This document shows, one piece after another, positions 28 to 28,491 of a stretch of DNA of 32,101 bases. The notes beneath the pieces were generated by a model, which was not told the DNA's origin, made no database searches, and worked only from the letters and a program-made list of their open reading frames with translations. The stretch is from the NCBI GenBank assembly GCA_947258515.1, contig CAMYIO010000007.1, positions 1 through 32,101 of the forward strand, given 5' to 3'. The stretch is from an uncultured Ectothiorhodospiraceae bacterium (lineage in GTDB: Bacteria > Pseudomonadota > Gammaproteobacteria > UBA9214). How positions within the stretch are numbered: the first letter of the stretch is position 1; every line of letters begins with the position of its first letter. A program made the position numbers and the translations under genes.

Positions 28-99
28 TGCAAGAGCGGCGTCCACGCCGCGATTCGAGGTGTAACAAAAAACAATCGCGGCGAGGACGCCGCTCCTACA
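28..99. repeat. Inverted pair of REP-like (repetitive extragenic palindromic) elements
   Basis: Left copy 28-54 TGCAAGAGCGGCGTCCACGCCGCGATT; reverse complement of right copy 73-99 TGTAGGAGCGGCGTCCTCGCCGCGATT (24/27 identical, inverted, 18-nt spacer). Each copy has its own 6-bp stem GCGGCG/CGCCGC. Resembles GTAGGAGCG...CGCGA REP families of gammaproteobacteria. Confidence 0.85.
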
Positions 100-832
100 A
101 GGTAGTGATCTCCTGCATGCGCGCTTCGATCCAGTCGGAGGCTTCGGCCAGTAGCTGCTGGGCCGATTTCCCGGCCGGATCGATGGGTGCGCCGATGCGA
201 ACCTGTATGACCCCTGGACGCTTGATAAAACTGCGACGTGGCCAGTACTCGCCCGCATTGTGTGCAACCGGCACAAGGGGATAACCGCTCTGCTCGGCCA
301 GCACGGCACCCCCTATGCGGTAGCGCCCGCGCGCTCCGGCCGGAATGCGGGTACCTTCAGGAAAGATGACGACCCAGATGCCTTCCCTGAGACGTGTCTG
401 TCCCTGGGTGACCAACTGCACGACAGCTGCCCGGCCACTGCCACGTTTAATGTGAATGCATTTCATTAATGCAAGGCCCCAGCCAAAAAACGGAATCCAC
501 ATCAATTCCCGCTTGGCGACCCAGACCTGAATAGGAAAAATTTGCTGCAGTGCAATTGTCTCCCAGGTGGACTGGTGCTTGGAAAAGACAATACCTGCAT
601 CCCTGGTGATATGTTCACTGCCCTGTATCTCGTGGGTGAGCTTGCAGGTGACTTTCAGCCACCAGAGGATAAAGTGCACCCATACCTGAACCAGTTGCCA
701 GCGCGTTTCGAGAGTAAAGAACACGGTAAACAGCAGCAGGGTGGCAAAGATCACCAGCGAAACAGGAAAGACGATCCAGAAGGCCAGCGAGCGTAACCAG
801 AGTACAAAATAGGAAGTGTTGTCTGTCGACAT
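95..832 (-). CDS. plsC: 1-acyl-sn-glycerol-3-phosphate acyltransferase (PlsC family)
   Basis: 245-aa ORF; acyltransferase motifs KHQSTWE (HX4E variant) and FPEGTR; N-terminal TM segment; adjacent to gmhB and glyS. Confidence 0.9.
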   Translation of the reverse strand: MSTDNTSYFVLWLRSLAFWIVFPVSLVIFATLLLFTVFFTLETRWQLVQVWVHFILWWLKVTCKLTHEIQGSEHITRDAGIVFSKHQSTWETIALQQIFPIQVWVAKRELMWIPFFGWGLALMKCIHIKRGSGRAAVVQLVTQGQTRLREGIWVVIFPEGTRIPAGARGRYRIGGAVLAEQSGYPLVPVAHNAGEYWPRRSFIKRPGVIQVRIGAPIDPAGKSAQQLLAEASDWIEARMQEITTL

Positions 833-26663: not shown

Positions 26664-27992
26664 TTACAGTATGTAGCGGCTCAGGTCTTCATCCTTGACC
26701 AGTGCATCGAGATGTTCATTGACGTAGGCTGCATCGATAACCAGCTTCATGCCGGCACTGTCGGTGGCCTCAAACGAGATCTTTTCCAGCAAACGTTCCA
26801 TCACCGTGTGCAGGCGCCGTGCACCGATATTTTCCGTGCGTTCATTGATCTGACTGGCGATTTCGGCAATGCGCACAATGCCGTTTTCGGAAAACTCCAG
26901 GGTGACGTTCTCGGTAGCCATGAGCGCGGCGTATTGTTCCGTCAACGAGGCATCCGGTTCCGTAAGGATACGGGTAAATTCGGCGGCACCCAGATCATCG
27001 AGCTCAACCCGAATGGGTAGCCGCCCCTGCAGTTCCGGTATCAGGTCCGAGGGTTTCGAGAGGTGAAACGCACCCGAGGCAATAAACAGAATATGATCGG
27101 TCTTTACCATGCCGTGCTTGGTCGAGACGGTGCTGCCTTCGACCAGGGGTAACAGGTCACGCTGCACGCCTTCACGCGAGACGTCTGGTCCACTGGACTC
27201 GCCACGCCGGGTGACCTTGTCGATTTCATCGAGGAACACGATGCCGTTTTGCTCGACGTTTTCCAGTGCGCTGTGTTTAAGGTCGTCCTCGTTAATCATT
27301 CTGGCAGCTTCCTCGTCACAGAGCAGCTTGCGTGCATCCTTGATGCGCAGTTTGCGTGACTTGGTACGGTTGCCGCCCATATTCTGGAACATGCCCTGCA
27401 GCTGGCTGGTCATCTCTTCCATGCCGGGTGGTGCCATGATTTCCACACCCACGGGGGTAACCGAGAGCTCGATCTCGATTTCCCTGTCATCCAGCGTACC
27501 CTCGCGGAGGCGCTTGCGAAATTTCTGACGGGTTTCGGATGTGCTGTCATCTGCCGCGCCAGGCGCCATGCCCTTGGGTGATGGCAGCAGGGCATCCAGA
27601 ATACGGTCTTCCGCGGCATCTTCTGCACGGTGGCGCACCTTGTCCATGGCGGTCTCGCGTGCCAGCTTGATGGCGGCATCGGCAAGATCGCGCACGATAG
27701 ACTCGACATCACGACCCACGTAGCCCACTTCGGTAAACTTGGTGGCCTCGACCTTGATGAAGGGGGCATTGGCAAGCCGTGCCAGGCGACGCGCGATCTC
27801 TGTTTTACCCACGCCTGTGGGGCCGATCATGAGGATGTTCTTCGGGGTGATCTCTGCACGCAGCTGCTCGTCGACCTGCATACGCCGCCAGCGGTTGCGC
27901 AAGGCAATGGCTACCGAGCGCTTGGCGTCATCCTGGCCGATGATGTGTTTGTCCAGTTCCTGGACGATTTCTCTGGGTGTCATTTGCGACAT
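26664..27992 (-). CDS. hslU: ATP-dependent protease ATPase subunit HslU
   Basis: Start [37 protein letters not shown]; Walker [10 protein letters not shown]. The ORF-track extension upstream runs through the REP-like sequence. Confidence 0.97.
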
Positions 27993-28005
27993 ACTTTCTT
28001 CCCGG

Positions 28006-28491
28006 TTATTGACAGCCCGACCGCAGGAGCGCCCCATTGGGCGCGAACATGTCGGTATTATCCAGCAGCGCACGGGCCGCTGCCTGTGCATAGGGTCCGC
28101 CCGAGCCAATCGCCATGAGGGAGTTTTCCGGCTCGATCACATCGCCGTTGCCGCTGATAATCAACGAGGTCTCGCTATCAGCCACGGCCAGCAGGGCCTC
28201 GAGGTTGCGCAGCATCTTGTTGGTGCGCCAGTCCTTTGCCAGTTCAACCGCCGCCCGTGTCAGCTGACCGCTGTGTTTCTCCAGTTTGCCTTCAAACAGT
28301 TCGAACAGGGTAAAGGCATCGGCCGTCCCGCCGGCAAAACCCGCGATGACCTTGTCATCATAGAGGCGGCGGACCTTGCGGGCATTGCCCTTCATAATAG
28401 TGTCGCCCATGGTTACCTGGCCATCACCACCAATGGCAACGCTGTTGCCGCGCCGGACAGAAAGGATGGTTGTGCCGTGAAATTGGTCCAC
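28006..28491 (-). pseudogene. hslV: HslV protease subunit, C-terminally truncated (GTG start at 28491)
   Basis: Intact from [12 protein letters not shown] through [16 protein letters not shown], then [13 protein letters not shown]-stop instead of the expected helix and GDICIYTN segment; the tail is encoded by a REP-like hairpin. Could be a modified functional gene. Confidence 0.75.
28022..28048 (+). repeat. REP-like element within/at the 3' end of hslV
   Basis: CGCAGGAGCGCCCCATTGGGCGCGAAC: same 27-nt layout as the elements at 28-54 and 73-99 (6-bp stem at 8-13/18-23, 4-nt loop), with compensatory stem changes. Confidence 0.75.

Follow-up and report, generated by a model that had tools for sequence, protein, structure and literature searches.

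Apparent loss of the HslV C-terminal tail at a REP element beside an intact hslU gene in a draft gammaproteobacterial genome

In an uncultured Ectothiorhodospiraceae bacterium, homology of the hslV gene to its relatives stops at a REP element, and the frame runs on into 13 unrelated codons next to a full-length hslU. The lesion, read from one draft assembly, is probably a recent REP-associated deletion that inactivated HslV and left HslU intact. Positions are those of the whole 32,101-nt stretch of DNA that was analysed (the window):

26664-27992, minus strand: hslU, full length, 442 aa, with an intact C-terminus, DEDLSRYIL.
27993-28022, minus strand: 30-nt remainder holding the end of the new tail, its stop and purine-rich GGGAAGAAAG, a possible hslU ribosome-binding site.
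28006-28491, minus strand: hslV frame of 161 codons, GTG start at 28491, TAA stop at 28006-28008.
28048-28491, minus strand: hslV core, 148 codons from the GTG start through DNTDM; the catalytic TT at residues 7-8 is kept.
28006-28047, minus strand: non-homologous replacement tail, 13 codons and the TAA stop.
28023-28047, minus strand: REP TTCGCGCCCAATGGGGCGCTCCTGC, 25 nt, GTAG-type, GCAG variant; on the plus strand 5'-GCAGGAGCG...CGCGAA.
75-98, plus strand: second REP in the window, whose GTAG end gives the TAG stop of an acyltransferase (PlsC-like) gene at 95-832 (minus strand).

Residues 1-148 of the window HslV, up to DNTDM, align with HslV of relatives and the final 13 do not, just as the initial annotation had read them. 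Homology stops at 28047, where the REP begins, and the last homologous codon adjoins the element. In full-length relatives DNTDM is followed by a tail of approximately 31 residues, consisting of a helix and a strand with DICIYTN. The initial annotation had expected about 30 further residues including this segment, and indeed none of the 109 related hslV loci examined lacks the tail, whether among the 29 taken from the closest genomes or the 80 from GTDB species; the single locus missed by the tail motif reads DTCIYTN and therefore has the tail. The recommended alignment with close relatives thus shows the tail missing only here, with no other tail-less HslV among the 109 loci. The tail is also present in every HslV match listed from a profile search of 232 gammaproteobacterial genomes, each at least 95% complete; that listing stops short of some 50 matches with lower scores, the one from this genome among them. 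The tail is found in no frame of the 30 nt between the REP and the hslU ATG (27992), as had been claimed, and the proposed search for another hslV returned neither a second copy nor a displaced tail in this genome, which rules out both possibilities. The window HslV scores 239.9 bits against TIGR03692, above the curated cut-off of 157.75, and its match stops at position 144 of the 171 in the profile, while that of a relative (L081) reaches 171. By this profile it lacks a complete HslV domain through the C-terminal strand; it has also lost residues L158, A161, C165, T168, N169 and E175, which do not vary among 32 relatives.

The divergence had been placed at the edge of a REP-like hairpin; the break does lie there, at 28047, and the element is a true REP. 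Its hairpin, GCGCCC-AATG-GGGCGC at 28044-28029, has a folding energy of -8.3 kcal/mol as DNA. At the foot of the hairpin GCAG replaces the GTAG tag, a common variant in this genome; the loop is a rare variant present in a single copy, and similar loops are found elsewhere in the bacterial family. A strict REP pattern built from the conserved flanks (TCGCG-N7-16-CGCTCCTRC) has 353 matches in the genome (175 and 178 copies per strand), versus 0 for the same pattern read backwards, so that the REP identity is beyond chance. The copies lie mostly in opposed (inverted) pairs, as REPs do in BIMEs, and the family is accordingly a high-copy conserved palindrome in inverted pairs, as expected of GTAG-type REPs. 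The pattern is present in 22 of 23 genomes of the bacterial family. Across species of the genus the copy number ranges from 3 (G003) to 353 (this genome). Long frames containing REPs near other REPs were considered as further candidates and set aside: most look spurious, and the longest (L037) has no family match.

The genome contains three RAYT-like genes, on contigs C34, C48 and C102. Those on C34 (146 bits) and C48 (147.7 bits) pass the NCBIfam REP_Tyr_transpos cut-off of 80, and the one on C102 falls just below it. The C34 gene (L159, positions 754-1651) is preceded by four REPs and followed by three, and is thus a REP-associated tyrosine transposase gene flanked by REPs. The C48 gene (L161) is cut by the contig end and has a REP after it. 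Near the third gene there is a run of N at about 340-370 of L160 (contig C102).

The hslV core and the hslU start are separated by 55 nt, compared with 124-190 nt in 16 relatives, giving a net loss of 69-135 nt despite the 25-nt REP added; thus, sequence has been lost and not only added. The lost stretch comprises about 31 codons with their stop, as well as part of the spacer between the two genes. The hslV-side break of the deletion falls on the outer edge of the REP; since species do not share a conserved spacer, its far end cannot be located. The new hslV stop lies 13 nt from the hslU ATG. REP insertion plus deletion had been proposed from the start: the REP at the break and the net loss uphold that proposal in part, and insertion may have been the cause. 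That the REP brought about the deletion, that HslV is inactive and that HslU acts alone are inferences beyond what the sequence shows.

From the observed REP, break and loss, we infer an order of events and an enzyme. A REP of the abundant GTAG-type family would have inserted in or beside the end of hslV, and its mobilisation was probably the work of the REP-associated tyrosine transposases that this genome encodes. A deletion bounded on one side by the edge of the element would then have taken away the last approximately 31 codons together with the stop and a large part of the spacer, and the new frame would have gained 13 REP- and spacer-derived codons before reaching a stop. The shortened HslV would be inactive, with hslU still made.

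Hairpins promote replication slippage. If the lesion is real, there is somewhat less than an even chance that the deletion arose when replication slipped at the hairpin of a REP that the spacer already contained, the transposase playing no part at that step, a route that overlaps with the explanation preferred here. A relative (L010) has TAGGAGCG, a REP-like stretch, directly 3' of its hslV stop, and REPs commonly lie just after genes (PMC3733652); however, no REP was found in the hslV-hslU spacer of the genus relatives examined, and sequence alone does not separate slippage from RAYT action.

By either route, the deletion would be young. The HslV core has a dN/dS of 0.04-0.08 against sister species, indicating strong purifying selection, and nonsynonymous:synonymous changes on the terminal branch number 9:23 in the hslV core, 5:18 in the sister and 16:59 in hslU. 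Because the core dN/dS is low and the branch counts are in line with those of the sister and of hslU, the lesion is, to judge from these estimates, either young in relation to the time since the species diverged or an artefact. They also rule out hslV as a long-standing pseudogene.

An artefact would mean that the real tail and spacer are normal and that the assembler skipped approximately 100 nt at the hairpin or between strain variants. The draft genome has 269 contigs and is apparently a MAG, and REPs lie close to the ends of several of these contigs (C7:75, C18:145 and C26:13, among others), from which it follows that they disturb assembly; the absence of relaxed selection on the HslV core and the intact tail in all relatives examined point the same way. 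However, the loop variant of the hslV REP occurs only once in the genome, and the 88-nt junction has exact matches of at most 15 nt in the rest of the genome, under the usual assembly k-mer, which argues against repeat collapse. No orphan hslV tail was found on another contig, and the other large genes nearby are open frames. An assembly error at this junction is therefore unlikely, though well worth bearing in mind, and a REP-associated deletion is the better explanation.

The reading of hslU as intact from 27992 proved correct: its 442-aa product matches TIGR00390 over positions 1-441 of 441. A purine-rich stretch precedes its ATG, and its C-terminal DEDLSRYIL docks into HslV, as is generally known and as one source describes (PMC6429459). 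Since the start site, the likely ribosome-binding site and the docking tail are kept, HslU production probably continues. In AlphaFold2 predictions made with small alignments and for the monomer only, the window HslV reached a pLDDT of 71.7 and a pTM of 0.68, versus 88.5 and 0.86 for a full-length relative; confidence drops over residues 121-161 and around the N-terminal strands, in the region bearing the catalytic threonine. Because the Ntn-hydrolase sandwich has lost its final strand and the C-terminal helix is gone as well, the short HslV most likely fails to fold or to assemble into an active dodecamer, and HslUV proteolysis would be lost; on these structural grounds the cell appears to have no working HslUV protease. 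HslV is dispensable in the class, as 23 of the 232 near-complete gammaproteobacterial genomes have no match to it; since ClpP is also present in this genome, its loss is plausibly tolerable.

Another genome of the bacterial family (G018) also has a damaged hslV, at approximately 1433-1923 of L163 (G018:C7:37700-40400), where an internal deletion around residues 57-76 shifts the frame while hslU beside it is intact; this could be another loss or an error of assembly. It is improbable that hslV has been lost repeatedly in the family, by a REP here and by internal deletion in G018, with HslU retained and working without the protease. Very unlikely, too, is a short HslV that still functions with a replaced tail, the REP-encoded codons possibly serving as a substitute helix: the core and hslU are under purifying selection, AlphaFold2 draws a helix at 152-160 and C-terminal REP-encoded residues may leave function unaffected (PMC3733652), but the pLDDT of that helix is under 60, the last strand went with the lost segment, as did the residues that do not vary among 32 relatives, and every relative examined keeps the tail.

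If real, the lesion is a clear, datable case of a REP marking partial loss of a conserved housekeeping protease subunit with its partner ATPase intact, and would offer a natural test of whether HslU has any role once HslV is gone; if not, it amounts to routine gene decay or an assembly error. No description of a truncated HslV or of REP-caused tail loss was found in the literature. REPs at or inside gene ends are already known (PMC3733652), and the hslV case is a further example.

Compared with other HslV/ClpQ peptidases, the window HslV shares core residues 1-148, the catalytic Thr and the operon with hslU, but its C-terminal helix and last strand are absent. The G018 lesion is alike in that hslV is disrupted beside an intact hslU; it differs in being an internal deletion with a frameshift and no REP. 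As in RAYT/REP (REPtron) systems (PMC2817692), the genome has many inverted-pair REPs and a RAYT gene flanked by REPs, that on C34, whereas the hslV REP stands alone and has a loop variant unique in the genome. Most GTAG-type REPs lie just 3' of genes, where they often give the stop codon; some fall within coding regions, and of these intragenic copies slightly more than 10% are at the coding end (PMC3733652). At hslV the palindrome likewise overlaps the 3' end of the gene and supplies codons, and the window REP at 75-98 provides a stop codon as such elements do. However, gene-end GTAG REPs mostly decorate a complete protein (PMC3733652), whereas hslV loses a conserved segment at the REP edge.
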